From Rhododendron vialii (Eukaryota; Streptophyta; Magnoliopsida; Ericales; Ericaceae), in NCBI RefSeq assembly GCF_030253575.1, contig NC_080557.1, forward strand, positions 45,894,501-45,958,500: DNA of 64,000 bases, written 5' to 3'. Of this stretch, positions 3,148-53,336 are shown one piece after another. A program made the translations under genes and the position numbers. The notes beneath the pieces were generated by a model. The model did not search any database, had not been told where the DNA came from, and saw only the letters and a program-made list of their open reading frames with translations. The first letter of the stretch is position 1; every line of letters starts with the position of its first letter.

Positions 3148-6100
3148 TCAGCTTCTCTTTTGGATTTCAAAGGAATATTTGAGCTCCATATGGCATCTTT
3201 GGTCATCATCTTCAAACTGTATAAACAGTCAATGTAAGAGGAATTACGAAATCGTAAACCTATTTGTCAGACAGAAAAGAGAGGAAAAAATGGTAACAAA
3301 AGAAACTTCATCTATTCGATCACATTACAGGTATAGCATAGACTTCCATTAGAATCAACTGCAATGTCACTAACTGTACGTTACAGGCAGAACAGCGTCA
3401 CATGGGCTCTTCAAAATAAAGCAAGTACTTGTATTGACAATTCACACCTGGACAAAGTGTGGTTTGTGTCCAATATTAAGGTGCCATTTTTTCATACTCT
3501 TCGATTAGAGGTTTGACAGGTCCAACCCCTAGACGGTTAGACCTGCACCTGAATTTATCATGCAACATAGAGCAAAACCAGCTTGGATTTGATGTACTTG
3601 TGTGCTACAAACGGAACCAACTTGGTAAAGTTTTCAGCAGTCCGGGCCGTGTCTTAGTCCAAGTGTGGCTGATCATTCACAAAGACCAGCTGAGCATAGT
3701 CGGCGTACTTGTGCTAGGGTAAAATGGATTTCAGGTTCCAGTTAATGTGCAAGTCTAAATGTGCTACAGCTTACAGGTAGGTTATATATCTCCAGGTTAA
3801 TTCAGCCACTAGTTCTCCAATAAAAGTGAAAATTATAAAACAGATTTTCTTTTTAGCAGTTATTCATTCAAGAAGGAGAATGCTCCTCCAACCTTAAGAG
3901 AACAAAGCTATGCATATTCTTTAAGGTGTAAAAATGAGGGCTAAGAAGAAAACATGACCTTCGGATTTTACCCGCTTAGATCACAGATTTTTGGTTACAT
4001 ATGCTTGAGCATGCTTGAGGGCGTAAGTGCACATACGTGTTGTTGCAAGGAGAGGGAGGAGGAAGAGGCGAAATTGCACACACCTTAAGCTTAGCCGAGT
4101 ACATTCCCCTTGCAAGCACGCCAGATGGAGCGGTCTCCTCGTCTAAGGTATGCACGTATGGTTCACGTCGAGGAGCAAATGCACCCAACATTCCTTTGCT
4201 TTGATCAACTGCAACCCAAATGGCAAATAAACGGACAAAATAAGTAAAATACAACTTTAAGTTGGTTGAAATAAACACTGTCAAAGATTAAGAAACCAAG
4301 TGTTCTGTGTTTTCTTTCCTAAGCACAGTTGAACGACTCGAACCTTTGAAATACCACTGCCGTAAAGATGAAAACCAACAAAAACCCAAGATTACAGCGA
4401 TACCAAAGAATCATAGCTCCTGTTAAAGCGGTTTTGCGGAGGAATCCCTACATTATTGCTGTGATAACAATTCTGCTAACCGTTTTTAATTTAACAGCAA
4501 TTGCGGAAACCATGTTGCCCAGAACTCTTGATTTATAAACCTCAGTTAAAACATTTATCTGTTTTATTTGTGTGCAAAAGGAACAACAAAGGAAACAGTA
4601 TAGACCATACACAACACCCACATGTCATTGTGTTTAGTGAATAAGTATAGACCATTGTGCATTCTATAGGAATTCCAATGGCGCATTTGCAACAGTTTTG
4701 GTGTCCTCCAACTGTTTCCCAATCACTTTTACGGTTGAATGAAACTGCTTTCATTTGTAAGTATTTACCCATTTTTTTATTAGTCGAACACCTGTGTTGT
4801 AAAAAAAAAATTACTTTTTGATTAGTCACGGTTTGAATTAAGCTGCAATGAGTTCATCACAATCTTACCAGTGATTCTGCTCATATAAAATTTAACTCAT
4901 CATTTGTGAGAGAGAAAATAGAGAAAGTTCTCAATCACCTTGGAGTCCTCCCTTCCACACTGCGTTTGTGTAGGTCAAGCCAGAGACAATGTTGTGCAAG
5001 ACAGTGAATGCCAGTTTAAGTCGATACTCGGAACCCTCCTTTAGGGTAAAGAGGGCACAGCTGCTTTTACTCTCATCAACAGGTATAGGAGTACTAATTT
5101 CCCCAATATCATCAGATATGATTCCTATGGAGTGGAATATAACTTCAGGTTCCGTTTTTCCTAACAAAACAAAGAAAAAAAGTTCACGAAACAAAACACA
5201 TTGAAGCCCTTGAACATTTTTATAAGGCATCATAAAACCTAAGACAACCATCTAAATCGCTTTCCACGCAACCGAGCAGCTGCTCTTTCCACCGCCTTAA
5301 GCTCTCATCCTCCTGAAAAAGCAAAGTTAAATCTTAGTACTGATCTCTGGCCATACCAAAGGATACACCAATGAGATCCGATTGATGAACCTAGCAATCA
5401 TCTATTGGAGCACTTCTATGCCCAACAGAAATGCAAATATTTTTTGTTTTAGGTAACCCAGCATGTGAATAATCTTCATCAGCAATGGAAACGGTGGAGG
5501 TATAAGCTTTAAGAAGTTCTACAAATGATGTGAAAGGAAATGTTTAAAGCTGAGTGGAAAACGCAATCTGTTAGGTTCGTTTCCATGGAGAATAATCCGA
5601 AGAAGGCAATAGGCGGCTCATGGGATTCAAATGGGAGCGAGGGGGCGTTAGCACGCCTCGAACCCATGACCACATGAGAGCCAAACCCAATGGGAGTAAC
5701 CCATTGCCGTCTTGGCTACCAACCCGGGTGGTGGTTATAAGGTGACGTGTAAAACTAGAATGTATTCATATTATTGTTAAACTAAAATCCTAAGGATGAA
5801 TTTTTCCTTACATGGTCATTTCAAGGTTTTCTTACATAGTCATTTCAACTCCATCGTGATAAAGCTCCCACAGCCAATGTCCAAATTCATATGCAATTAT
5901 TAAATCTGAGATTGGACTATTCTCATCGAACAACGTGTGCCAAATTCTTTATTTCAATCCACATGTGTCCACACCGGGGCCGAGACAAGGGATGCCGGGG
6001 TGATCGCCCCTGCACAACTCCAAATATTCATATTTATTATACTATTTTTTTAGGTTAATTCGAAAACTTTTGTGAGATTGGCGCCTACAAGTCCCTTGAG

Positions 6101-14029: not shown

Positions 14030-15610
14030 GGGTTTTATGTTCTTTTGTTACAACACTTCTCTTTTTTCCTACATAAAAAGAGCTAGGGGTTAAACAAAGA
14101 TGGCTCTCAACCAGTCATTGCTAATTCAAAAGTGTTACGGACAAGAAGTTCATATAGTATATATCTGGATAAAGATATTTTGAAATCGTCCGATATGTAT
14201 GGACTTATCACATTTTTTCTTATTAAATATACGTACATCGAACTATTCCAGACGCATTTATGTCCGAATCTATGAGCATACGTCTTTCCGCATTGTTAAG
14301 CACCAATAGTCAACTTGTCATAAACCGCTTTTAATTTCCTACAATGACTAATCCTACGTGGCATATGTTGATGATGCATGTGAAGGTGGTAGTAACATTA
14401 CTACTACGAGTCTAATTCATCACATGTTGGGATTGAATAAAAACAGATTCCCGTTACTGTTGGGAGATTTAGAGCCACTGAAAAATTAACCCTAAAATGG
14501 ATACTGGATGGATGTAGTTTTGTATGTGGATCTAAAGGATATAGCACCCGTGTTTGTAAGATCTCCACTATCTCATGAGTTGTCACGACCCTATAGGTGT
14601 GAATCGGTTAAGAAATCAAGCGGGCGAATGAATTCATAAGGCATATTTATTTGAGCAATTCAATTGGTATAATTGCGGAGCCAGGATTTTTGATAAATGG
14701 GGTCGAAAATTTGAACTATGTGTAATTCGTAAATGAAACTCTTGATTTGTTTTGAGGAACGAACAAACTACCGTTACGTTTGTGGTAGACAATGGGGTTG
14801 GTTGCCCACCCTTGTCTATATGTCCTCCGTCACTAGAATCACACAACGTGGTTTGAATTCATGCACAAATAAGGTTCTTCATGAATTCAACGAGTCGGTA
14901 TGATGTTTAACGAAAAAAAGTCTTGGTGGGTGCATAGCAAAATATTTAATGTCATCATAAGCAGTACTATAAATTACTCCGTATATCAATTGTACTGTTT
15001 TTCGTTTTAATATAACTATATTGCTCGTAAATTTTTTTTTTAGTAAAGACCTTAGTGAACTTTCAAAACGGATTAAGCTATGATGCTCCTACAATTATAG
15101 TTTCGAAAATACTCTGGAATCGCTTTGATTACATCGAATAATGTAACGAAAATACCCAAAGAGACCCTCGTAGCGTGCTGAAATCATCCGTTAAGTTGCT
15201 CGAAATATCATCCAAGTTTTTTTAGCAAAAGACCATCCAAGTTACTACTATATTAATACGAAAAACAAAGTACATCAAAATAACAAAGCAAAATACAAAA
15301 AAACAAAAAAACAAGAAAAGCTTGCTCAGTCGCTGATATCGGATCCCAATACTTCGTTCATAGAGGTGGGTGGATGGAAGATTGCCACCGAATCATACTA
15401 TCGTCAGAGGATCGCTGCTGGATCTACCTTCAAATGCCTTCATCGTCACCATTGAAGATCTCAGGAAATCATCGTCCGAGCCAAACCTACTAGGGTCTCC
15501 GTGCAAGAACTAATACCTAGACCTAATTTCAAAAATGATGGGGAGAGTGGGGGAGGAGAGGAGAAAGTTCGGATCAATGGAGGGCTAAGAGGGGAGGAGG
15601 AAGTTACTTA
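14030..15610. other. Intergenic, no gene recognised
   Basis: No supported exon. A GCGGAGCCAGGATTTTTGAT word at about 14675 is typical of plant hAT-type MITE ends, but a clear partner end is not found. Confidence 0.4.
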
Positions 15611-15750
15611 TGGGCGCGAATAATTACTCCTGACCGCAAAGAATTGTTTTTGGCCGTGAAGAATTACTTTTGGTCGCAAAAAATTACTTATGGCCACAAA
15701 AAATTATTTCTGACCGCGAAGAATTACTCATGACCGCCAAAAATTACTCC
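15611..15750. repeat. Minisatellite, seven units of exactly 20 bp
   Basis: Seven head-to-tail units with consensus TGACCGCAAAGAATTACTYN, each exactly 20 bases. They begin at 15611, 15631, 15651, 15671, 15691, 15711 and 15731. Units differ from each other at several positions, but no indel has accumulated. The period is not a multiple of three and no frame is open, so it is not coding. Confidence 0.93.
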
Positions 15751-16007: not shown

Positions 16008-19000
16008 ATGGTGAGAGGATCGCTTGACAAACTCGTCTCTCGCTCTCTGTCCGTCGCCGGTAAATGGCAGCAGCAGCAGCTCCGCCGTCTCAACATCCAC
16101 GAGTATCAGGTTCCTCTTCTATTGTCATCCTTCGTAATGTTTATTTTACACAGCCGTAGATACCTGCAATCTAGAGAACTTACTTCGACTTCGATTCGAG
16201 AACTGGTCCTCCTTTTGTTTGCCAAAAATAAGTACAGAAAGAAAGAAAGAAAGACCTAATTATACGCTCTCCAATGTTTTTCTTTCCATTTAGCCAAAGC
16301 CTAACCACATAAATCACAGCTTGATTGATTTGTTTGGATTCTGATGGGGTTGTAGATAGGGAAACCTGGTGAAATTTAGCAGCTGGAGTGATGTTGTGTG
16401 AATTTTCAGGGAGCCGAGTTGATGAGCAAGTATGGAGTAAATGTTCCGAAAGGCGTAGCGGTTTCTTCAGTCCCAGAAGTTAGAAAGGCAATTCAGGATG
16501 TGTTTCCCAATGAAAGCGAGGTAATTGTTACGCTGTAGGATGCCTGTGTCTCAATTTTTATTTCTTTTGGCTTTACGGAGGTATGAAAGGCCAATTCAAT
16601 CTGGCAATGTAGCACTACTATGCCGAGTTGAATGCAGATTTTTAATTTGCGGTGTCGGGAACTATAGAAGTTCTGAGACTATATAGTTGAAACTTAGTAA
16701 TTCAGATCATCTGTCTCCTGTGGTGCGAATCCTCCCCCCCCCCTGATGACATGGAAAAATCCATGAACCAGTAGCAGTATGAGAAGGGGTACCGATCGAG
16801 GCAGAGGATCTTCATTTGGAAAGTAGACGGCGTGCTTTGTTGGAACAGATTTGGGAAGTGATTCACTAAATTAATGCAAGCGGGGCAGGGAATCTGTTGA
16901 TGGTATAGATGAACCTACTTAAGTGCAAGGGTAAAGTTTCATTTCTTTGGTATTGTCGTTTTGTCAGTTGAGAATGTAGAATCACATAGCCCTTCAGCCT
17001 TCTGTTTTGACTTCTTTAGAACTGAAGTATGCTGGTGGCAACCGTATAGGTGCCTTTTAGTAGAAATATATGACTAATCAGGAAGAAAAAATAATGCAGA
17101 CGCTGCTCATACGACTGTTTTGAGTGCAAGATTATTTTGTGCTTTTCTTTTCCTTTCCCGGTTATCAATCAAGCTAAGAAACATGAATAAGCAATGTTCG
17201 CTTTGGTTCTTATCCAGTTGGTAGTTAAAAGTCAGATCCTTGCTGGTGGTCGAGGCTTGGGAACATTCAAAAGTGGTCTTAAGGGTGGTGTCCACATTGT
17301 TAAAGCTGATCAGGTTGAAGAGATAGCTGGTATGGAAGTTTTCTTTCGTCTCTTTCCTTTGCCGCTATTGAAAATTGTTAATTTACTTAAGGTGCAATAA
17401 TTCTTTCCCCATCACCTCTGCACATTGTTGGATATATAATGCGTTCGATTATTCAAAGGATTTTTCTCAAAAGAGAGTTTGGTTAAGCTTTTGTAATGCG
17501 ACTAACTGCGCTCTATACTTGTACGTTTACTTTTTAAATCGATATATTTCCCAAGTTTAGTCGCTTGTTATTGTTTGCAGGGAAGATGCTTGGACAGATA
17601 CTTGTAACTAAACAAACTGGGCCTCAGGGCAAAGTTGTCAGCAAGGTTAAGTTTCTTATGTATGCAAGGGCAGAGCTATTTAGATACAGATGGGGTCAAT
17701 TGAGCCCAGTGACTCCAACATCTCACCCGAAAATTATAGAACTTTTACATCTGTTTTACAATTTTGACCACATTAGAACACCTAATTTGCCTAAAGCCCT
17801 ATGGCCCCTCACTTGAGCATTATGTGATTTTAGGTTTTTAACCCCACTATCCAAGATTCTGGCTCGGCCTTATGTTGACAGTAGACTCATGTGGTAGGTG
17901 ACGAAGTTTCTGTAAGATTGATCTTCTTGGACTTGCATTATGACTTGTGCATATGAATCGGTAATATGTCAGTATAGTTGTTTGGGTTGGCAATTGGCGG
18001 AAACAGCACGTGTTTCACACTTTCACTTTCACCAACCGTATTCTGCTCCTTCTGGCATACCCTCAGCTATCCCCATGCCCGATGCCTGTCGTAAATTAAC
18101 TCTTTGTCCCCATGTTAGCTAGGCTGCCAGTTAAAAACATTGTCTCACAAATTATGGTTCTACTAGAGGGTAGGACAAGAGCATTGTCTGGCATCATGAA
18201 CAACTTTTAATGGTAAGACCTACTTGAATTTGTAATTTGAAGTAGACAGATAAAGAGTAGCTGCAACACAATTTGAATGTGTTACGAGAAAAGAAATCAA
18301 ACTGGATTGTCTGTTAAATTCTCTATTACTTGCTGTCCCTCAATACCAATTTACATGTTTTATGTTTGGAGATATCTGGACAGTAGTTCCTTAACACTTC
18401 TATTTTCTCCTACACAGGTTTACTTGTGCCAAAAGCTGTCCTTGGTCAATGAGATGTACTTTGCTATCACTCTAGATTGTAAAACGGCTGGTCCTGTATG
18501 CCCCCAAACTTTCTTTGGTTTTTGAGTTTAACATAGTGAAGGGTTACTTATTATTCCGTAAGAGGCCTATGTTCTCTATTTAGGGTTATGTTGGGGAAAG
18601 ACCAGCTTGTTTCCTGTCTGCTCTCTCTCTCTCTTTCTCTTTGATATTTGATTTTCTTACATCTGAAGGAAAACTCCGTGCCTCTCGTTACAACAAAACA
18701 ATTGGAACATGACTACTTTGTGTGACTTTACTATGCATTTGCTGTTTAGAAGAGTCAAGGATGAATGCTAGGGCTGGCAGTGTATCATATATAAGCATGC
18801 CACCCTGTCAGGGAAGTTAGAAAAGGTTAACTCGATTTGGTATAGAAAGAGATATTGATCGATTGATTTCTAGTTATATGACATTTTGTATGGTTCTGGC
18901 TTTCATCATAGCGCTTCTTTACCTCTTCAAATTATGTTCTAATGACATTGAAATGTATCTAGTTGTTAGCTATCAAGTTCAGATTTCAGTGGTCCTGTTG

Positions 19001-21586
19001 TTGATAAAAATTGAATGGAGTGTAAGAAGTTGTGATTTTCTTCCATTCTCCTATGAATTAGCATGGATTGGTAATTGTTCTGTAAAAATTCTTTTCCATC
19101 TGTGATAAAGTCAGAAAGAATACTTACCCAAAATAAATAAATAAATAAATAAATCAGAAAGAATATCTACTTCCTGCCTTTATATTTTACTTGGTCCTTT
19201 CCGAATGCTAGTTCATGAAGTAGTACAACATCAATTTTGATGGAATCCTTTTTGATTTAGTTTTCTTTATTTGGTTTTGCACATTTTCTATTGCCTTGAA
19301 ACAGATGTTCTCAAGTGTAAGGTGCTTTTGCATTATTCTGTTGTTCAGCTCATTATTGCTTGTCGGAAGGGAGGAACCAGCATCGAAGACCTCGCAGAGA
19401 AATTCCCTGACATGATTATAAAGGTTCTGGCATGCTTTACATAGACCATAAGTAGTTTCCTTGCAACATTGTATTTCCTTGCATAAATGGTTGTCTGGTT
19501 GTCTGCCCAGGTCCCTATTGATGTTTTCAAGGAGATTACAGATGAAGATGCTGCCAAGGTTGTAGATGGATTGGCTCCCAAGGAAGCTGACAGGAGTGCT
19601 TCGATGGAACAAGTGAAGAAGTTGTACAAACTTTTCTGTGAAACTGACTGCACTCTTCTGGAAGTAAGCATTAGCTGCTTTTTGTCGTGAGTCATGACCC
19701 CTGCTCAGGGTTAATAATTGATGACTGTCTTGTGTTTCTGAAAAGTTTTTGTCCCATATTTTAGCTGAGCATTTTGCATATGGACAGATCAATCCAATTG
19801 CAGAAACTTCTGATAACCAGTTGGTAGCTGCTGATGCAAAGCTGAACTTTGATGACAATGCTGCTTACCGTCAGAAGGAGATATTTTCTCTTCGTGATCC
19901 GACACAGGAGGATCCTCGTGAGGTTTGACGATAACATTTTTTTCCTGAGATATGTGAAAATGGTTGCACTGATACTCTGGTTTAAAGTCTCCGGTTACCT
20001 TCCCTAAGACAAAATTTGGACAGATAACACCAGCCGTTAGCTTGAATGTCACCTCCTGCCATCGTCAAAGGGAGTGCAGGGTTTATGTCTTGGGTTGGGA
20101 TGTGGTTGAGCGCTTGTCTTTTCAAAGATGCGGAAAGTATATCGGAAGAGTATAAGGTCATAGTTTTTTGGAAGTCATATTCATATAAGAGGAGCAAAGC
20201 CTATGGAAAAGAAGAAAATAAAAACTTTGCAACTAAACTTAGGATTCATTTTTTTTTCTTGGGTAATCCAAAATTTTCTTAGAAAGACCAGACGAAGAGA
20301 GCGACTAAGGGAGCACAAGGGAAAACACTCGAAACCAGACACTAAACTGATACAGACTCAGAACCACACATTCTAGGAGTTAGATGTCAAGAGTGACGAA
20401 GGGCTAGATTAAGGGGGGTAGGCTCAACAGAGGAGAATTGAGATCCCCTAATTTGGAGATCAAACTTTATCTGCTGAAGGATTGAGGATAAAGGCAATTA
20501 ACATACGATTGGTTATATTTCTTCAGCTATGTCAAATTTGCTGATTGTCTTCAACTTCTGATAGGTTGCTGCTGCACAAGCAGATCTGAATTACATCGGG
20601 TTGGATGGGGAAATTGGTTGCATGGTGAACTGAGCTGGATTGGCAATGGCTACAATGGATATAATTAAGTTGCGTGGTGGAACTCCAGCCAATTTTCTTG
20701 ATGTTGGCGGGAATGCGTCTGAAGGCCAGGTAATTCGTGTAGGGTGCTTGCCTATCTTGCTAACAGAAATTCATCTGCCAATTATCCACACTGCAATCAT
20801 GTGATGCAGGTTGTGGAGGCGTTCAAAATTTTGACTTCTGATGACAAGGTGAAAGCAATTTTGGTGAATATATTTGAAGGAATAATGAAATGTGATGTAA
20901 TAGCGAGTGGAATTGTCAATGCTGCTAAACATGTGAGTTTTGCATCAGATTTATAATGATGGAGATTGCAATATCTTTTTGACTGCTTCCCTGTTAGTTT
21001 TTGGCTTTGGGTCTTTATATCAATATATCCTGATTTTCATTTTTCAATTTTCATCCTAGTTCAGTTAGAAAATATTCCTTAGGCTGTATTTGTATCAAGT
21101 ATTTTGGTAAAAGAAGAGAAAGGAAATAGAAAAGTTAAATGATCTAACAGCTCTCAACTGTCTATTTCCTTTTCCACCCAATGCTCGGATATTACGTAGT
21201 ATTTCATTTTCATTCGAGTCTTTACTTATGCTTAGAGCAGTTCGATCTCTGACCTATATGCTAGTTGTCGCACAAGCGCTGACTTCTCTATGCATTTGTA
21301 TTCAATGAAGGTTCAATTGAAAGTACCAGTAGTTGTTCGTCTTGAAGGCACCAATGTTGACCAAGGGAAGAGCATTCTGAAGGTAAATTTCGAAACTGTA
21401 TCTCCAGTCAAATCTTATAGGCAGAATGTTCACTACGTCTTCCAAAGTTGTCTAATGAAAAAGGAAATCCATCGATGATTGCTGTTTTGATCTCAAATCT
21501 GGTTACAGGAAAGTGGCATGACCTTAATTACAGCAGAAGATCTAGATGATGCCGCTGAGAAAGCAGTCAAAGCGGCGTACAATTGA
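16008..21586 (+). CDS. Succinate-CoA ligase beta subunit, mitochondrial (frame interrupted by one TGA)
   Basis: TCA-cycle enzyme subunit that, with the alpha subunit, converts succinyl-CoA to succinate while making ATP. Twelve exons: 16008-16109, 16410-16520, 17218-17329, 17581-17645, 18418-18495, 19349-19423, 19511-19663, 19788-19922, 20565-20729, 20810-20932, 21311-21382 and 21509-21586. All borders are GT-AG and in phase. The total is 422 codons plus stop, the usual plant length. The first about 28 residues are Arg/Ser/Gln-rich, as in a mitochondrial transit peptide. They are followed by [17 protein letters not shown] (ATP-grasp start), [40 protein letters not shown] and [20 protein letters not shown]. 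The C-terminal ligase domain has [14 protein letters not shown]. Oddities: TGA at 20631-20633 (codon 300) replaces the Gly of the GCMVNGAGLAMA motif. Codon 355 (20876-20878) is Glu in NIFEGI, where the family has NIFGGI. Codon 151 (18478-18480) is Cys where Arg is usual. Either a young pseudogene, a broken allele, or sequence error. Identity of the family is certain; whether it is functional is not. Confidence 0.9.
17667..17872. mobile_element. hAT-like MITE in intron 4
   Basis: Inverted ends TATGCAAGGGCAGAGC and GGCTCGGCCTTATG inside the intron between 17645 and 18418. About 200 bp, no coding content. Ends are imperfect. Confidence 0.45.
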
Positions 21587-35987: not shown

Positions 35988-38900
35988 TCAAAAGGGTGCC
36001 TCAACTGATCTTTTCCAGACTTTAATACCTTCATTTTTGTCTCCCTCTTCTTCTATTGAGAGCCTAATATATTCTCTATGTGCAAAGCGATCCCAATCTG
36101 TCAAAGACGGATCCTCTCGCTCCTGCTTACAACATCACATAACACTGAAGTTAAAGTAGGCTAGTAGCAGAGAAATTGTACCTGCATCTCGATGGTGAGG
36201 CCATGAAATATCAAAGAACAAAATCGTCAAAGTACCTGGCGAATGAGAAATGGATCACGAGTTTCGAAAGCCATGAACTTATTGAGATTGAAAAGGATAT
36301 TGAAAATGTGTCCTGAAAGTTTGCACCCTTTGAAGTCACGGAGTGTGATGTAATCCTCCCTCTGCAAGCAATATGGCATCAGTGAAGGTGAAGAGATCTC
36401 CAAATAGACAAGGGAAAGGAGGACACAACGACAGGATAAGTTGCAACCTCTGGTTTAATCATGTCCACAATCTGACATAAGATGTCTTCAAATAGTATAG
36501 GCTCTTGGGCCATGCACTCTATTCGGTGAAACTGTTCCTCATAAATATACTGCATTTCATTCACTGTTATCACCCCATTTCCATCCAAATCTATGCATTT
36601 GAACCTAACAAAGTTGTTTGAATAGTAAGTGGAGTAAAAAAGATGATATAAAATTAAATCTCTTGAATAAGCAGAAACTAAAGGCCTGGATTGCTTCAAA
36701 TCTTGCGTGATACTCTACCTCAAATGTCTACCTCATAGTTTCATAAGGAAATTCCTACAAATCTAGAAAACTTAAAAGAACCAATTTTCCTTCCACCATT
36801 TCCGCAGTGAATCCTCATTTAAAATGTTTGACAAATTTAGGGTGCCAACAGTTCATCTAAAGACCTTCTCATTAGGTTCTTGCCCAAGTCCCAAGTAATT
36901 TTTTCAAAATGCCTCACCAATTAGATTATCAATCATCAGGATGAGAATACATCAATCAAAAATTTAGTACTACTACTGCTACCTAAAAATATCAACCATC
37001 AATGGTATCACTGGCTAATCGAGATATGAAATTGATGGAACCCAATTTGAGTGCAAAAAGAACTTGTAGCTACTGCAACTAATCAATAGTTGTAACAAGG
37101 CCAATGCACTTTTGAACTGAAGAGAGCAGTTTGAGGTAGGCAGTAGCAGAAGATAATTCTTCTTTTAGTATAGAAATCAATGACAGGAACAATTGGTAAT
37201 TGGCAGAACATATAAGATAACTATACCAATACTCAAGACTAGGTTCAGATGATTTATCCTCCTCCGCAAGCACGAAATAAACAAAATCTTCATAAGCCAT
37301 TTTCCCTTCAATATTGCTACTAAAGTTCCTTGGAACCTGAAAATAATAGAGCAGAAAAACAACAATGCATTAGAGTTTAGTAGTAGATGCATAGGTGTTT
37401 AGGTATAGATGTTCACTCTGCACCAATATCAGTTAGTTTAATACACGTTTTTGAAGCATATAGTATCAAGTAACAAATACGAACCTGTGAAAATATCCTA
37501 CCAATGATCCTGTAAGTAAGAGCATGATTACCATATCTGATAAGGTTCTCCTTGTCAATTAAGAAATCATGGTCTGTGTCCAGCTCCCAAAATATGCAGT
37601 ATATAACATAAAAGTGCTCATAAGAGAAGTACCTGAATAAAAGGGAAAGCATGAATCAACAGCTCACATCAATCAACAATCAATGAACCCAGTCATCAAA
37701 CAGAAAAGAAATTAGTTCCCATGTTACCAATGGCAGTCATACACCAAAATTTCAAACACAATTTCTTAAAATAAGATAACACGTACAAATTAGTCTTATG
37801 AAACATAAAGAGACAAAACCTCCTTGACCAGGATGAGCTTGCAGCCCACGAGTGTCCTTGTCTAAAACTTCCAGAAGTTCATTTGTGTCTGCTGCCCTTA
37901 AAAAGGAACTAACTCAAAATATATATACGAGCTCTGGTAGCTTGTTTAGCGAGCCCCAGAAATAAAGTTGATCCTTCGAAGGAGTACACCAGATGCTGAA
38001 TTAAAAATATACTTGTAATTGCAGCCAAACTGAAAATAATTTTTCAAATGTCCTTCACTCCAATCATGCAAAGAATCTCCCAAGCACACTTACCTCAGAA
38101 TTTTGTTAATATCCTTTTCTTCATCTGCATGCTGCATTGCTTCAATAAGGTTTCCACGTTTCAGCTCCCTGAGGGTCAGTTGGCCATTTCCAGATCTATT
38201 GACGTAGAAAAATATTCTGCATACAACAGTTTCAGCTGGACCATTGTTCATGTTCAAAGCATGTTAGTAACCACGTGCCCACTAACTTTTAAAAGAAAAA
38301 AGAGAACAAAACTAGATTAAATGTCCAAAATACAACTGAAAAACGTCTGTCAAGATTAACAGCAGTTTTGCCATGATCTGTTCCATTCATCCCAGTCTTA
38401 CCTTGTGACCACGAGCAAAACGAGAAAAAAGAAAAAAAAAAAAGGCGGGACATTAGATCAACGGTCCCACGAGTAAACCACAAGGAACTTGTCAACTGAT
38501 TAAGAGCATACCATATCTTTCTTGAAAGTCGGGTGTGCTTTGTAAGAATTCCAACCCTGGATGGGTAGCCAAAAGTTCCCGAAGAATAGGTTTGAAGTCA
38601 GCCTGAATGCAAGATCCAGAGAAATGAATGGCGAATACATAAAAGAAAATTGAAATGAAGAAGAAAAGAGCCAAAGGCAATAATAACATACAACCAAATC
38701 TAGGGCCACGTCATGGCATACAACCAACGTCTATGGCCACTAGGATTGCAGAGATTTACCAGTGATCCTGTTGCAATTTCTGTTAACTCTTAACCATACG
38801 CATGAAGGAAAAGTTGAGATCCCAAATATCACACTGAAGTAAGAATCATTGAAATAACCTTGGTAAGATATTTAAGGTTAGGTTGCTTAAGAATTTTGAA

Positions 38901-41042
38901 TATCTGGGTCGCTATATCCTTTGTCAGCATGTTGCCATCAACCCAATATTTGACAAATGCATCTCTGCAAACACGAAAAATTATGCAGCATATCAGCAAG
39001 GAGGGGTGACAAACCTTGTTCTCATGTGACATTAAGCTAAAATCATCTTCCCGTGGGTTAAAAATTCATAGTTATGCACTTGTCAGAATCTAAAGGGGTC
39101 CTAAACTGATTTAGTTACCTAGTAACCATTCCTGTGCAAGCAGTGTCTATCTTTCTGAAAAGCGCAGAGGAAAAGAATGATGGCAACTTGCATAATTCCT
39201 TTGTGACTTGTTTAAATTCTGCATCATGAAATCAAGAAAATAGTTACTCGAGTCTAAGATAGGAGGAAGGATAAAACCAAGATTTATCTTCCAACATAGA
39301 TGTAAGAGAAAACCAGAGAAAGCAGATATCTGACCATGTACTTGCAATCCATCCGATCCATTGAAAAGCTGATTGATTCTAGAAAGACATTGTTCTTTTA
39401 GTTCCTTTGGGGCTGGACAACCATTTTGAAAATAGAACTGAAAGAACATAAATACACATGGATGTTGCATTCGATACATAAGACAAGTAACAACAGCATT
39501 ACAATTAGGGGCGATAAACGAGTCGAGCAGTTAGTCGTTCAAGTTTGGTTTGAAAACTTAACGAGCTTCAAAACATGTTCAAGCTTAGCTTATTTATGAG
39601 ACAAGCTGATCTCGAACGGGCTTCAATCGAGCCAAACACGAGTAGAGTAGTAGCCTGTTCGAGCTTGGTTTAAAAGCTTAACGATTTTCAAAAAATGTTC
39701 AAGCTTCATTTGTTTATGTAACAAATCTATCACGAATGAGCTTCTAAAACACGAGCTCAAACTCGAATAGCTTGGTTCGTTTATCGGCCTTCATTACGAT
39801 TGGTTCAATGGGTCAAACCTGAGGTATGTTTTCTCTAACTGGTTCACATTTTAGTGTAGAACCCAGTGAAAAAGGGTTAGTCCTCTGCTTCAAAGAACGC
39901 GGAGAACTAGAATCAATTCCAGGTGAAAGTGGAGGTGCACTACTACCCACATGAAACTTAGAAGCCAATGAATTGCTACCACCAACAACATTTGAAATCG
40001 AAGAGGTCCCCATGGCATTATTAGTAGGTATACCTGATTTTGCATCATTAAGTAACGATTTCACCTGCATTTTTCCAAAATAGAGGGAAATATATTCAAC
40101 AAGACTATTACGAAATCGGCCAAATCAACAAACAAATACAGGCGCATGAAAAGAACAATCAAGAAAATAAACAAAGAACAAAAGACACGTACATTTTTAA
40201 GTGGTTCCCAAATGTGTGGTTGAATATGTTAGGGTCCGGAGTGCCCCCTTGGATTAGGTTACACAATGCCACTCCCCGCGACTGCTCTAAAAATAAACTT
40301 GCGGGTGTGATGTTGAATGACATAAAGATTTAATTGAAGCCATTAACACCAATTGGTTTTAGGAAAGAGGTGGAAAAGCAGACCGACAAGTAGTATTAGA
40401 GCCAGGAGGTGATAGGTTCGAATTGCGGGAGCGTCATCGCGAGGGAGGGACTGTTGGGCCCGGAGTGGCCCCCATGGATTTGGTTACATAATGATACTCT
40501 CTACAACCGCTCTAAATAACAGACTTGGGGGCGGTGTCGAATGTCGTAAAAGACTAAATTGAAGTCCTCCCTAACAGGGTTAGGTTAGGTTTTACGAGAG
40601 ATGGTGGAAAAGCGGTCCGACAGAATACATCTTTGGCTCATACCAGTTTCTGCTACGTATGGAATGAAAAGGGAATACAAGTGGATATAAGAAGTGTTAA
40701 TAACCTAGCCAAGCCAGTTTTTAGTACGTATGGGGTGAAAGAGAGTACAAGTGGATATAACCTAGCTAAGCGCAACCCAAATCAAATATGGCTTTCACAA
40801 GCCCAACATAGACACCCACTCCAAAATCAACCGATGAGTTTCGACCCGAAGAGAAAAAGTAACAAAATCACAAGAAGGAAAGGTACCAGTCGGCCAGTTT
40901 GTGGAAGTGATAACCACTGAGCAAACAGGTCTTCGGCAATCCGAGGGCTGTTCTTTAGCCTTACTACAGAGGAGACCTCTTGTTCTTGTAGTTGCAGCAA
41001 CAGTTCAGGGTCCAGTGACGTCACATCCCCCACGATATCCAT
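35988..41042 (-). CDS. PP2A regulatory subunit B'' (EF-hand type)
   Basis: Calcium-binding regulatory subunit that targets the PP2A core phosphatase. Twelve exons on the minus strand: 41042-40887, 40064-39819, 39437-39335, 39218-39119, 38964-38859, 38602-38512, 38235-38094, 37632-37485, 37336-37227, 36604-36448, 36361-36236 and 36122-35988. All borders are GT-AG. The sum is 540 codons, 539 residues, normal for the plant B''alpha/beta group. The start [15 protein letters not shown] is the typical N-terminus. A Ser/Pro-rich linker (about 70-130) is followed by [19 protein letters not shown]-hand loop 1 is [12 protein letters not shown] (333-344). EF-hand loop 2 is [12 protein letters not shown] (406-417), with canonical D-x-D-x-N and Glu at position 12. 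The C-terminus holds [20 protein letters not shown] and [18 protein letters not shown] and ends VEAPF. TON2/FASS is less likely because of the N-terminus. Intron 1 holds a TRIM and intron 2 a foldback MITE. Confidence 0.94.
39507..39792. mobile_element. Mutator-like MITE with duplicated core, in PP2A B'' intron 2
   Basis: The ends AGGGGCGATAAACGAG and GTTCGTTTATCGGCCTTC are an imperfect inverted repeat. The flanks ATTACAATT (39498-39506) and ATTACGATT (39793-39801) differ at one base, so they look like a 9 bp target duplication, the Mutator hallmark. Inside are two diverged direct copies of about 130 bp built from words such as TTCAAGCTT, AACGAGCTT and CGAGC. Confidence 0.65.
40227..40622 (+). 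mobile_element. TRIM-type LTR retroelement in PP2A B'' intron 1
   Basis: A miniature non-coding LTR element of 396 bp. LTR 1 (40227-40388) starts TGTTAGGGTCCGGAGTG and ends CCGACA. LTR 2 (40452-40622) starts TGTTGGGCCCGGAGTG and ends CCGACA. The internal part of about 63 bases begins with TAGTATTAGAGCCAGG, which matches the initiator-Met tRNA primer-binding site well, and ends in the purine tract GCGAGGGAGGGA. GAATA lies directly on both sides (40222-40226 and 40623-40627), a 5 bp target duplication. It looks structurally whole but has no genes. The two LTRs have clearly diverged, so the insertion is not recent. Confidence 0.88.
40645..40770. repeat. Short imperfect direct repeat in PP2A B'' intron 1
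   Basis: The block TACGTATGGAATGAAAAG ... TACAAGTGGATATAA at about 40655-40690 recurs at about 40725-40760 as TACGTATGGGGTGAAAG ... TACAAGTGGATATAA. Confidence 0.6.
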
Positions 41043-41252
41043 ATCCAGTCTATATACAAATGAAATGGTTGTATATCATCGGCCACCACCACTTCCAAAA
41101 TCTAGCTCTAGACGACCACCGATGAGAGAGAGAGAGAGAGAGCGCACTCGTTAACAGAAGTTTGATGTTTATATACAGACGTATACGTATGCTCCTGCTT
41201 ACGTGTCTACATACACTCCTCTCTTTGCATTTCGAGACAACAAGAGAGAGTT
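41043..41252. promoter_or_regulatory. Upstream region of the PP2A B'' gene
   Basis: Contains a GA run (41126-41142, CT on the coding strand) within 100 bases of the ATG. It is directly followed by the foldback at 41253, so the proximal promoter is short or lies in the element. Confidence 0.4.
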
Positions 41253-41962
41253 TGCTACGTACACTGCACCAAATCACTACATCATCCATTATATTTTCAG
41301 TGTAATCCACTCAAGATTTAAAAAAAGAGGAATGTTACATACACTACACACTTTCACTACACCATCCACTACATTTTTTATGAGACTCATTTCGGGTCCA
41401 ACAAAAAATACAAAAAAATATCCATAAATTTTAAAATAATATTTTAGAGGGCTCCGTAAAAAATCAGCTCTAACGGGTATCGATAAATATTATTTCTGAG
41501 TTTGTATGTTCGAAACTACGCAGTTGAGCATTTTCACTCCTATTATTTCCTGTTAGTGCAGTGTACAAGTGGATATAAGAAGTACACTACACTAAACCAC
41601 TACATCATTCACTACATTTTTTATGGGACTTATTTCAGGTCTCACAAAAAATTCAAAAAAATATTCATAAATTTTAAAATAATATTTTAGAGGGGCCTGT
41701 AAAAAAATTAGCTCTAACGGATATCGATTAGTATTATTTCTAGATTTGTAGGAGCGAAAATGCTAAACTGTGCAGTTTTGGCCGTACGAACCCATAAATA
41801 ATAGTATTTACCGATATCCGTTAGAGCTAATTTTTTATAAGGCCTCATAAAAAACATTATTTTAAAATTTTTGGATATTTTTTTGTATTTTTTTGAAATC
41901 TTGAGTGGACTTCACTAAAAATGTAATGGATGATGTAGTGGTTTGGTGTAGTGTACGTAGCA
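41253..41962. mobile_element. Foldback element 4 with three left-arm copies
   Basis: The outer ends are inverted: TGCTACGTACACTGCACCAA at 41253 and the near reverse complement of it (TTGGTGTAGTGTACGTAGCA) ending at 41962. Between them lie two further direct copies of the left arm, starting near 41332 and 41575. Each reads CACTACA-CATCCACTACATTTTTTATG, then TAAATTTTAAAATAATATTTTAGAGG, then AGCTCTAACGG-TATCGAT (given in parts). A single right arm starts near 41790. It shares the AAAAATCAGCT ... GATATCG core with the elements at 7303, 9408 and 9857. Confidence 0.8.
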
Positions 41963-42744
41963 TCTCTCTAGTATTGTAAATTAACATGAAAAAAAATGAA
42001 TTGGTGTGATAGTCCTGCACTTATTGGCGGGAACATCACGTGGGAGTGCTCCGGAAGCAATTATAATTTTCTGTAAATGACCGTCTCATATTTCATAAGC
42101 TGTCATTTTTTTTTTCAATTTGATCACTTTAAGAATTACAGTTTCCTACTTTGCTTAAGCCCGACTGTAAGTATAAGCTCAACAGATCACCGTCTAAAGC
42201 GCACAAATTTGGCCTCAAAATTGGGGTTCGTTATGGAAAAATCTAACAACCCCTTCTGATGGTGAAAAAATGTGAGATAAGAAAATGGGAGTCATTTTCA
42301 CTTTAAAGTCTCACCATTTCAGGTGAGATTGGATGAGAAAGAAGAAGAGCCAGCTAAAAATGATTTGACTAGAAACCATGACCATTTCTGTTCTTTTCTC
42401 CTGAAATCTCACCATTCGAACGGGTTGTAAGGGTGTGTAAATGACAATAATGCTGCACGATCTTTATGCACAAGCAGCACAATTGTACATTAGCCAGATA
42501 ACGAACACAATAATAGCAAGAAATGGTGCCTGGAGGGTTCAATCCAGGCAGAAACCAGATTAATACCAACCACATGAAACAAATTCTCACCCAGAAGTCT
42601 CTCTCATATAGTTCAAATTTTCAGCATTCCATACGTAGTACAATTTCAGCATTCAAAGATTTACTGCTAGCATGGTGCACCATACTTAGTATTGCAATTA
42701 CTTCGAACAGCTACATAGTAATAAGCATGAAGCCTGTTAAGTGC
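41963..42744. other. Intergenic and NOP10 3' flank
   Basis: No exon is supported. The last few hundred bases probably include the NOP10 3' untranslated region. Confidence 0.4.
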
Positions 42745-47229: not shown

Positions 47230-47332
47230 TCTTCCAAAGTACTTATGTCCCTCACAGTCTTACAGAATATCAGATCTTCTCATAAATTACTTCCCACAAT
47301 ACTAGTCACTCTCTCTGTTCTAAGCAACAACG

Positions 47333-48496
47333 ATGGCGTTTGACGGAGAGATTCTTGAAATCTTCTCATGGTTACCGGCAAAATCCCTCCTCAAATTCAG
47401 TTCAGCTTGCAACGCTTGCAAAGATTATGTCTCCGATCCGTTTTTCATAAAAAAACAAAACAGAAACATGCAGTTGAAAGGCGACTCTAGCTTTTTCGTA
47501 CAACCACATTCATGCCAAAGATTCGAAGGAAATTTGGAGTTTCATACTTTACCTGGTGAGGAGAATTACGAGGGGGTGCCTAACGAGTGTGTCAAATTCA
47601 TGAAAACTAATGGCCGGGTGCTTGCTTCGAGTAACGGGCTGGTTTGTTGTAGAAATATTAGCAACCAAGCAACAATGAATCACCTGTTATTTATTTGCAA
47701 CCCGGCTATGCGAAGCTGGCTAGGCATTCCCTCCCCGGCTAACCTCAGAAGCACGGCGGATAAAGATTTGCATATCTTTTTTCAGTGCAATATCGAGTTA
47801 TATGATCAGTTTCCCCGCGATTACCTTTTAATGTTGATGGAATATGAAGAAGATTGGTCTAACACCCTTTCATGCAAAATCTACGTACCCCAAAAGGAGA
47901 TATGGCTTGAGGCTGGGCACATGGATAGTGGCGGTAGAAACTTGTTATTTGAATCTGGCGTGTATCAAGGTGGCACTATTTATTTTTTATCAGATTGGTC
48001 TCCTTGTTTTGCTGAAAGAAGTCCTTTTTATTGGCCATATGTTCTTGCGTTCAATCTCGAAGAGGGTAAGTCAGGATTTTTAAAAGTACCGAAGGAGTCA
48101 AGAAAAGGCCTTACTGATCGGAGTTGCAGGATGTGTATATTTCCATGGGAAAAAGAGAACTCGATCTGTTTGGTGAAGTTACTCAAGGGTGTGCTTCTTG
48201 TATGGGTGTTGCGAGACTTTAACTTGGGGTCATGGAGTAGGATTCTCAAGATACGTGGGCGAGCGATGCGAATGGTCGAGCCTGAGCCCATTATTGTTGG
48301 TTTTACCGTCTTGAAAGGGAGTACGTTACTAGTGGCCACAACAAAAAGGATATATCGATACGATCTCACCGGTGATTGGAAAAGCAGGAGTGTTCGGAAC
48401 ATATGTCGACATCAATGTGGCGGAGATGTGTTGCTAAGTTCGTACTCGAGTACTCTTCGCCCGTGTGGAGACGGTGCGTCAGTGATTCATATATAA
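47333..48496 (+). CDS. F-box protein, single exon
   Basis: Intronless, 387 residues. The N-terminal F-box spans about residues 4-45. It reads DGEILEIFSWLPAKSLLKFS, then a degenerate CNACKDYVSDPFFIKK, which keeps the LPxKSLL and DPxFIK landmarks. F-box proteins bring substrates to SCF ubiquitin ligases through SKP1. After it comes a conserved-looking SSNGLVCCRNI block and FICNPAMRSWLGIPSP, which is the NPxxxxWxxxP pattern of plant F-box-associated/kelch-like domains. The C-terminal half has further beta-propeller-type strands (WSRILKIRG, LLVATTKRIYRYDL) but no clear kelch repeats. The substrate cannot be predicted. The start fits both the F-box position and the TATA box at 47219. The last codon is followed by ordinary AT-rich 3' flank. 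Confidence 0.88.
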   Translation: MAFDGEILEIFSWLPAKSLLKFSSACNACKDYVSDPFFIKKQNRNMQLKGDSSFFVQPHSCQRFEGNLEFHTLPGEENYEGVPNECVKFMKTNGRVLASSNGLVCCRNISNQATMNHLLFICNPAMRSWLGIPSPANLRSTADKDLHIFFQCNIELYDQFPRDYLLMLMEYEEDWSNTLSCKIYVPQKEIWLEAGHMDSGGRNLLFESGVYQGGTIYFLSDWSPCFAERSPFYWPYVLAFNLEEGKSGFLKVPKESRKGLTDRSCRMCIFPWEKENSICLVKLLKGVLLVWVLRDFNLGSWSRILKIRGRAMRMVEPEPIIVGFTVLKGSTLLVATTKRIYRYDLTGDWKSRSVRNICRHQCGGDVLLSSYSSTLRPCGDGASVIHI

Positions 48497-49491: not shown

Positions 49492-52400
49492 TCACCGATA
49501 ATAGGCCATGTGCCTGGATGACCTAAAAGGAGACGAATCGAATGGGGAAGATTTCTGGATTATAGCTGAAGGATTGGCAGGTTTCTTTTTCTCTTGCTTT
49601 GTTTCAGATCGAAGCCATGACTCAACCACTGAAAGTAGATTAGCAGAGTTCTTCAACTCACCAAGCTCGGATAATTTTTCGGTCCTCTTTAATTTGCCAT
49701 CTTGGATGTAGGCCAAATCCGTCGCCCACGTTTCCAGTCCATCAAAAATATGGGTTGCATACACAATGGTAGCTCCTCTCTACCCAATAGCAGTCCAAAC
49801 AAGATATAAACAAATAAATGCCTTAGTTAAGATTTGGGAAAGTTGATATTCAAGACAAATATTGAAGTACAGTAACATGCGTAACCTCAGCTAAAACTTC
49901 TTCGGTGTTTGTCCATTTTAGGACTTAATGCCATTTTTTAGAATCTTGTACATATACTTATGTAAAAACCTAAAAATACGCCAAGCATGTCCATACCTGC
50001 TCACATTCTTCCTTAAAGAAGTCCAGCAAATCTAGCCTGGCAACAACATCTAGATCAACTGTAACCTCGTCTAGCAAAAGAACCTGCAGGAGAGTAGTTT
50101 CGAGTCACTAAAACTAGAAGAGATGCAAAACCGTGTGACCAAACAGAACCATCCACTTGTCTAAAAAAACGCAGGTGCATGCCCATGTTACCACCATGTA
50201 CACTTTAAAAAAGATATGCACACACACACAACAATGACCAGATTCATGAAGAGGAAGAATAAGGGAAAGGGGAAAACAAAAATGAAGAGGTGCCTTTGTA
50301 TCCGCAAGTGAAGTAAATGGAAAAGGTTCACTTAGGTCCACAAATCTTCTAACACAACTAAAACGTTCAGCTTTCAGGAATCACATCAGTCTTACAAGAT
50401 TGGACCAAATTACCAGCAAATACATGATAACCTGAAACTCATGCAATTCTAGCATAACATATAAATAACGCATATTCTAATTCACAGAAGATATACATGA
50501 GCCAATGGAACAAAGATACCTGAAAAGGATGGAGAAGACCCATGCAGATTTGGACTCGACGCCGCTGACCATCAGAAACCTTATGCATTCGCCACAGTAG
50601 ATCAATATCGAGCAGTTCAATCAGCTTCTCTCGTCGAACAGGGTCAACCCCTTCAACTGGATGACAAGGAAAAATTAAAGAAGTTCACGGCGCATTTTCA
50701 AACTATGGATTCAACAAGAATTAGGTAGTTTTCATAGAGAGAACATGAGTTGGATTGAGTATTTCATCTACATTCAAAAGATAAATCTTTTCCTCCACAC
50801 TAACTGTCAACATTAGTTTCGAATATTAAGATAAAGTGCCAATCAAAAGAGTGGACAATGGCAGTTAATTCAGACTTGATGGAAGTAGATGATTGTCATG
50901 GCATGAAAAAATTATCCGTAAGCACTATCAAACTAATGCTTTTACTGACCTCCAAATATCATATGTTCAGCAGAAAAGTCTCCTTGAAGTGGTATCTCTC
51001 CCTGAATGTTAAAAGGCAGTACAATTTAGAATCGCATCTTAATTTCCTACAGTACATCCCTTTGAAACCAACATTAAACGGTAAAATCTAGAAAGCTCAA
51101 AAACTAAAATATCGCAAATATTCCCTCCATATATACAATCTGATATCAAATAATAAAGGGCAGACTGAATAATATGAAAGGATCAAGGGCAGTCTTAAAA
51201 ATATGAAAGGCATACTAGGCTAGATGTGTTAGCACTCTATCTCGCAGCTCCACCTTGCCAAAAATGAAAGTTACCTTAAATCAACCCAAAGGCTCACAAA
51301 CCATGCCACCCAACAATAAGATGAACATTTTGACGAAAAGCATGGGTATTATAAAAGGCCTACTGATGAAAGACACAAGGACTACTTCACTCCCAAGTCC
51401 CAACCAATCCACTAGAAGTAGATAACTAGTTATCTACTATTCCTAGCGAACTACTGGATACATGAACAGGCCAATTAGTCTTCTACATGGCTGAGATGAT
51501 CATGCTTCATATGCACTTCATGGTTTTTTGAAAAGCAATGCACTTCACAGTTGAGGAGAGAATCAATGTCTCATAAATGTTAATTAGGCTCTGGAAATAT
51601 GGCATAATTCCTTTCGAAACCAAATGAATTTATTAGTAAGTTGCAAGGAGGGAGAGATTATTTCATCTAACGTTTCCCAACGATAAGCAGCGAACACCAA
51701 AGTAAGTCTTAAAAACCCAAACACGCAATAATATATGCCTGATTCAAGCATTCACATTCTCCTAAAAATAGTATAATTCCATTATGCCAGGAGAAACAGA
51801 AAAGGTACAGCACTTGTGGGTTTTACATGAGCTTGGTAAAGAACTCACAGCAGAGCCAACAGTTTTACTCCAAGATCCTCCCAGATAGGATAAGTCACCA
51901 CTACAAACTAGGTGTGTATCATGAAAAGCTGAACCATTAAGCACCCGAACAATATCTCTTCCGCCAACCATATGCTTCCCAGCCAAGATCTTCAACAAAG
52001 TGGTTTTCCCTACACAATATTAGCAGCGAGTGGGATTCAGTAAACAGAGAATGAAATTTTTCCAGATAACTTAGACGCTCAGTAGTCAGTACAGTCAGGG
52101 GTGGAAGGTAATAATAGGAAATCATGTCAATATTTGGAAAATTTGACCATGATTGCTCCACCCAGCCAATCCTACTCTCTAACATGAATAAATGAGGACC
52201 TCGGATTTGTAACTTGTAAAGCAACTGATGGAAGTGACTTTCAAGAAAGCCAATTTCAACTAAATTTAAAGTTGGAGTAATTGGCTTTTTTGTTTCGCTT
52301 TATTAAAAAAAAAAAAATCGAGTTTGTTTGCTTTGCGCTTAACTTTTGTGGATTATTTGTTCGTCTTGACGAGAGGAATTGGAAAGGTAAGAAACTATGA

Positions 52401-52844
52401 CATTTATGTTTACCCAACATTTGTCGGACATATCCAACGAACAAATCGGAAAAGCCAGTTTTTGGACTTTTTCTTGATATTTCCAATTTTTTTTTGGGTA
52501 AATGTCATTATTTCTACTTTTTTAATTCCTCTCGTTGAGACAAACCAATAATCCATAAAAATTTGGCGCAAAACTAACAAACGTGAATAATTTTTGGAAA
52601 AATATAAATAAAGACAAAAGAAAAAGAGTCAAGTACTACAACTTTTAGTTTAGTGGAAACAAGTGGCTTTCTTCATTCATGCATCTATGAAAGTAAAAAA
52701 AAGGATCATACTAAAATCATGGAAAGAGCAAAATAATGCGGGATAGCTTCGATAATAGCTTCCACTAAGAACAGAAACAGTGAATAAAAACAAGAAAGCA
52801 GATCAAATGACATGGGAATGTGAATTCAATGGTGCCTTCTCTCT

Positions 52845-52908
<64 letters not shown>

Positions 52909-53336
52909 TTCTGTGTTGAAACTCTGGTTCATTCTCTGTTTTCCCTCAGTATGCACGTAGCCACTCTCTCCCAAATTGGCAACCATATATTTGGAACAAA
53001 AAGATCATGGAAGCTACTATAATAACCTGAATTCCAACAAAGTAAATACTCCCAATTCGAGGGTAGTTGCAAACAATATGCACGCAATCACAAAGAACAT
53101 AATCACGCAATTGACTAACAGAAAACACAAAACAAAGGTATTATACAATCAAGGAAGAACAAAATGTCATTTGCGATAAAAATGTGATTTTGATTACCGG
53201 ATCCGTTGGCACCGACGAGAAGGCATCGAGATCCGGGCAAGATACTGAGACTGAAGTCCAGGAAAAGCGGGGGTTGGGCATCGTACGCGAATTGCATACC
53301 ACTCACCCGAATACCGCTCGAACTCTCCTCCTCCAT
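49492..53336 (-). CDS. Soluble ABC ATPase, ABCI19/20/21 type
   Basis: A stand-alone nucleotide-binding domain without membrane segments, of the plant ABCI19-21 group (related to yeast CAF16). Members have been linked to ER-associated complexes and hormone responses. Six minus-strand exons: 53336-53198, 52009-51849, 51001-50950, 50656-50520, 50083-49997 and 49779-49492. They have GT-AG borders and give 287 residues. Motifs in order: [18 protein letters not shown] (A-loop region) and Walker A GANGSGKT (42-49, split by intron 1). Then come signature VSDGQ (144-148, where classical transporters have LSGGQ), Walker B VLLLDE (164-169) and H-loop His202 in [12 protein letters not shown]. The C-terminal tail is Lys/Ser-rich and ends SSRHMAYYR. 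The start at 53336 (MEEESSSG) fits the family. An in-frame ATG at 53495 would add about 53 residues, including an Arg-Glu tract encoded by a GA run. Intron 1 holds a long CT microsatellite. Confidence 0.94.
52849..52905. repeat. (CT)n microsatellite in ABCI intron 1
   Basis: 57 bases of pure CT on the plus strand, GA on the coding strand. Confidence 0.95.

Follow-up and report, generated by a model that had tools for sequence, protein, structure and literature searches.

The window analysed here is a stretch of 64,000 nucleotides from Rhododendron vialii (C1:45894501-45958500), and all positions below refer to it unless a contig is named. On its + strand, at 16008-21586, lies a gene of the mitochondrial succinate-CoA ligase subunit beta type, with 12 exons and 1269 nt of coding sequence, whose joining follows the reading frame and the splice sites. 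The exons are at 16008-16109 (exon 1, codons 1-34), 16410-16520 (exon 2, codons 35-71), 17218-17329 (exon 3), 17581-17645 (exon 4), 18418-18495 (exon 5, codons 131-156), 19349-19423 (exon 6), 19511-19663 (exon 7, codons 182-232), 19788-19922 (exon 8), 20565-20729 (exon 9, codons 278-332), 20810-20932 (exon 10, codons 333-373), 21311-21382 (exon 11) and 21509-21586 (exon 12). As the original prediction had it, the frame and splice sites are intact over the whole gene: all 11 introns have GT-AG borders, and the joined exons contain no frameshift. When a premature stop in exon 9 is read through, the protein scores 466.1 bits against NF001913 (ADP-forming succinate-CoA ligase beta, cut-off 370) and 432.5 bits against TIGR01016 (cut-off 375.55). 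Pfam ATP-grasp_2 matches residues 29-237 (193.6 bits, cut-off 29.5) and is followed by Ligase_CoA at residues 297-417 (115.3 bits, cut-off 24.5). The same family includes human SUCLA2, with which 201 of 393 aligned residues are identical, SUCLG2 and bacterial SucC, all with ATP-grasp_2 followed by Ligase_CoA, and ahead of the bacterial match the Rhododendron protein has an N-terminal extension of 27 residues. Judged by its domain order and by scores above the family cut-offs, the gene is a succinate-CoA ligase subunit beta by descent.

Several other features were seen in the window. Upstream of the beta gene, about 260 bp from its ATG, a 20-bp unit is repeated in tandem in 7.2 copies (15604-15748), and intron 8 contains a repeat (20245-20494) with relatives at C13:4718953-4719221 and C6:24026692-24026966. 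The neighbouring genes include pieces of a Rho GDP-dissociation inhibitor (4934-5251, - strand), a PP2A regulatory subunit B'' (35991-40058, - strand), an F-box protein (47324-48493, + strand) and ribophorin II (60693-62612, + strand; two matches under the Pfam cut-off). An ABC-type ATPase gene (Pfam ABC_tran), joined by eye, is at 49582-53336 on the - strand, and its residues 192-258 have a 93% identical match about 110 kb away at C1:46058900-46059100 (+ strand). No tRNA genes were found in the 64-kb window, and no Rfam family matched it at the gathering score.

Codon 300 of the beta gene, at 20631-20633 in exon 9, is an in-frame TGA, beyond which the frame stays open as far as 21584-21586, the normal terminal stop. 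It had been predicted that this TGA takes the place of an invariant glycine, and the alignment bears this out: all 80 bacterial sequences examined (the best 80 of at least 592 confirmed bacterial relatives) have Gly here, as do both human chains, SUCLA2 and SUCLG2, and a second copy of the gene on contig C13. That the TGA is one base change away from GGA, which had also been proposed, is not established, as the C13 codon is GGT. The glycine aligns with Gly324 of SUCLA2, and with this offset 13 of 13 other checked variant positions land on the named residue (positions from the part of the variant list consulted in PMC10342173, with listed positions 28 and 54 left out). Disease-associated SUCLA2 genotypes given in that part of the source include Gly324Ser, and also Gly324Asp combined with Arg284His (PMC10342173). 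The stop takes away 118 of the 121 residues of the Ligase_CoA match, in agreement with the predicted loss of the C-terminal ligase domain, and the 299-residue product as encoded scores 271 bits against NF001913, below the family cut-off of 370. The ATP-grasp_2 match lies entirely upstream of the stop.

The stop is not the sole lesion, although it had been treated as such. Three further codons depart from residues that are invariant in the same 80 bacteria, in both human chains and in the C13 copy: codon 151 (TGT, 18478-18480) encodes Cys in place of Arg, codon 189 (GAG, 19532-19534) Glu in place of Gly, and codon 355 (GAA, 20876-20878) Glu in place of Gly, all on the + strand. Five of the 80 bacterial translations each contained a stop, which was treated as X and disregarded at its column. 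Two of the four lesions, 151 and 189, are thus upstream of the stop and within the ATP-grasp_2 match, and one is downstream of it. Codon 355 is the position at which the NIFGGIM motif has its first Gly, and this motif begins a phosphate-binding helix. The stop and these three replacements set the window copy apart from SUCLA2, SUCLG2 and SucC. The number of departures from conserved columns was considered as evidence of decay and rejected. Counted over columns in which the bacteria are unanimous and match the other two eukaryotic proteins, the window copy departs at 6 of 79, SUCLA2 at 4 of 77 and SUCLG2 at 5 of 78, while among the 80 bacteria (the best of at least 592) 74 show no departure, five show one and one shows two. 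By itself the count proves nothing, because the working human subunits depart nearly as often. On the sequences compared, the argument for decay is instead carried by the kind of change and by the comparison with the C13 copy. Of the 79 columns that have one residue throughout the bacteria and both human chains, the C13 copy differs at only two, 161 and 171, and the window copy shares both differences. Since it has the common residue at codons 151, 189, 300 and 355 (Arg, Gly, Gly and Gly), all four lesions are private to the window copy.

A check for a second locus had been proposed, and such a locus exists at C13:3996612-4002171 (- strand). It is a full-length and structurally intact copy, with 12 exons equal in length to those of the window gene, GT-AG borders at 11 of 11 introns and 1269 nt of coding sequence running from ATG to TAA without an internal stop. 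In a search of the whole assembly (532,647,506 bases in 13 contigs; 21 of 21 first-look candidates scored) with the read-through protein, the 24 matches at E <= 1 consisted of 12 in the window gene and 12 on C13, with none elsewhere. Within the 64-kb window, tblastn with the same protein matched just the exons of the gene itself. A PF08442 family search of the whole assembly gave no match at E <= 0.001 and missed even the window gene, a failure that we think is due to the short exons, as the protein query found both loci. Viral contigs were searched with a 118-residue piece, and 10 stretches fitted a pattern, none of which was confirmed. The premise that the enzyme is encoded by a single essential gene fails in this genome, where a second, intact copy is present. 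In Arabidopsis, we take At2g20420 to be the only beta gene among three succinate-CoA ligase loci. A table of Arabidopsis genes, in the excerpt consulted, lists the three as At2g20420, At5g23250 and At5g08300 (PMC6387960). For tomato, the portion of the study drawn on here reports one beta gene, and its suppression by antisense or RNAi without significant change in phenotype, photosynthetic rate or respiration rate (PMC8590752). Yeast mutants that lack the beta subunit are complemented by the tomato genes (PMC8590752).

Between the two Rhododendron copies 158 of 1269 coding bases are different, with 112 of these changes in third positions, and 37 codons specify another residue. By the Nei-Gojobori method, with codon 300 excluded, Ks is 0.551 (bootstrap range 0.42-0.68), Ka is 0.044 and Ka/Ks is 0.080. 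The duplication is therefore old, and both copies have been constrained for most of the time since. Polarised with bacterial rather than plant outgroup sequences, 11 of the 37 residue differences, including the four lesions, seem to have arisen in the window copy and five in the C13 copy, with 21 unpolarised. Exon 2 is far more diverged than the other exons, with a Ks of 2.2 and a Ka of 0.20 (16410-16520 against C13:4001568-4001678); conversion or shifted constraint are possible causes. The pairwise Ka permits a neutral portion of at most 16% of the window branch, or about 12 My if a Ks of 0.55 corresponds to 78 My and neutrality is assumed only at the end. Both the calibration and the indel rate are assumed, so that all these ages are orders of magnitude only. 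The combination of four lesions in 79 columns and a complete lack of indels is best matched by an age near 3-4 My, while the lesions alone point to about 6 My, an age at which the probability of no indel is near 0.035. From the sequence record, the lesion count would thus call for an older death than the lack of indels does, and the two pull apart. Under the assumed rates the loss of the window copy looks recent, at roughly 1-10 My.

In Rhododendron, according to the part of the source that we drew on, a duplication peak lies at a Ks of about 0.65 and has been placed at about 78 Mya (PMC7572368), and the range of 0.42-0.68 for the pair takes in this peak. A comparison of the 64-kb window with C13:3930001-4050000 (120 kb) found no shared neighbour genes, the matches being the beta-subunit gene and dispersed repeats. 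Relatives of two neighbours, the PP2A B'' and ABC-type ATPase genes, are on C1, C3, C5 and C9, with weaker ones on C4, C6, C8, C10 and C11; none were found on C13 in the assembly search. An origin by whole-genome duplication is not demonstrated, as no neighbouring gene is common to the window and the C13 region, and in this the pair is unlike genome-duplication pseudogenes. Both heavy gene loss after a genome duplication and a transposed duplication are possible. At 41245-41969 the window also has an element with inverted and direct repeats, related DNA of which lies directly upstream of the intact copy (C13:4002470-4002857); it is probably a dispersed transposon-like repeat.

Taken together, these data make it very likely that the window copy, introns included, is a pseudogene that arose by duplication of the nuclear gene for the mitochondrial succinate-CoA ligase beta subunit, with an intact copy elsewhere in the genome. 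Like the duplicated (non-processed) pseudogenes of plants, it has kept its introns, all 11 of them, it has an intact paralogue elsewhere, on C13, and it carries disabling lesions, among them the TGA. As a working subunit it falls short on two counts, the encoded product scoring below the family cut-off and codons 151, 189, 300 and 355 departing from the residues expected. Against a pseudogene stands the lack of any frameshift or broken splice site, which a gene long dead should have. The original prediction had offered a very young pseudogene beside a working copy as one option. The pseudogene, the intact C13 copy and a loss that looks recent agree with that option, but the duplication itself, with a Ks of 0.55, is old.

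Messenger RNAs with a stop upstream of exon junctions are typically subject to decay. The TGA lies 96 nt ahead of the end of exon 9, with three exon junctions after it, and because of this position the window mRNA would probably be decayed. Were it translated instead, it would yield a fragment of 299 residues whose ATP-grasp domain is damaged. Either way the window copy would yield no working beta subunit, and the beta subunit of succinate-CoA ligase (succinyl-CoA synthetase) would be supplied by the C13 copy. The loss would then be an ordinary case in which a duplicated housekeeping gene reverts, late, to a single working copy. Among the papers listed by a literature search at the level of titles and abstract openings, none was devoted to this gene, and the plant residues at the lesion sites, sought in the literature as peptide words, gave no match.

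The stop could be limited to the haplotype sequenced, with the C1 copy on the homologous chromosome lacking it, so that what we describe would be a polymorphic null allele. A single haplotype was compared, and a private stop is possible given that the two R. vialii haplotypes differ at 3,152,185 SNPs, as stated in the section of the genome paper used here (PMC10338486). The three other replacements of invariant residues suggest a wider loss of constraint at the locus, and we regard such a null as unlikely.

It is very doubtful that function has been kept without a full-length beta subunit, whether by a truncated ATP-grasp protein, by a product that skips exon 9 or by read-through of the stop. 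The retained frame and splice sites would fit such a use, as would the position of the ATP-grasp match, all of it ahead of the stop, and exon 9 is 165 nt long, so that skipping it would drop the stop and preserve the frame. However, two of the lesions, 151 and 189, fall within that ATP-grasp match, the 299-residue fragment does not reach the family score, and skipping would delete codons 278-332, including the conserved GCMVNGAG and DVGG stretches. Read-through would fill the position with a residue other than Gly, and a change of this Gly to Ser in SUCLA2 is disease-associated, according to the part of the source cited above (PMC10342173). With similarly little confidence one could speculate that the C1 gene has retained a role in which its early-stop mRNA or exon 9-skipped product regulates the C13 copy, for instance by offering subunit alpha a decoy partner; if true, this would explain the intact frame and splice sites despite four lesions.

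That the gene works and its TGA is an error of assembly or base calling, an option which the original prediction had left standing and which the otherwise intact frame and splice sites might favour, is hardly credible, because three further replacements accompany the stop, so that the gene would not be a working one even if the TGA were an error, and because the assembly, built from HiFi data and polished with short reads, has a single-base error rate of 0.00021% by the excerpt of its description used here (PMC10338486). The neighbouring PP2A B'' gene, joined by eye, also aligns over 360 residues to the solved relative 4i5l_B with no break.

The finding matters mainly for annotation, in that a gene predictor may call the locus a working enzyme gene or may trim exon 9 and so conceal the stop. 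Most likely the window copy is a dead duplicate of an ordinary and fairly young kind, and the plant has probably been left with a single working beta gene, as reported for tomato in the portion of that study referred to above (PMC8590752). Seen in this way, a duplicate of a citric-acid-cycle gene arose long ago, was constrained for most of its life and was lost late.
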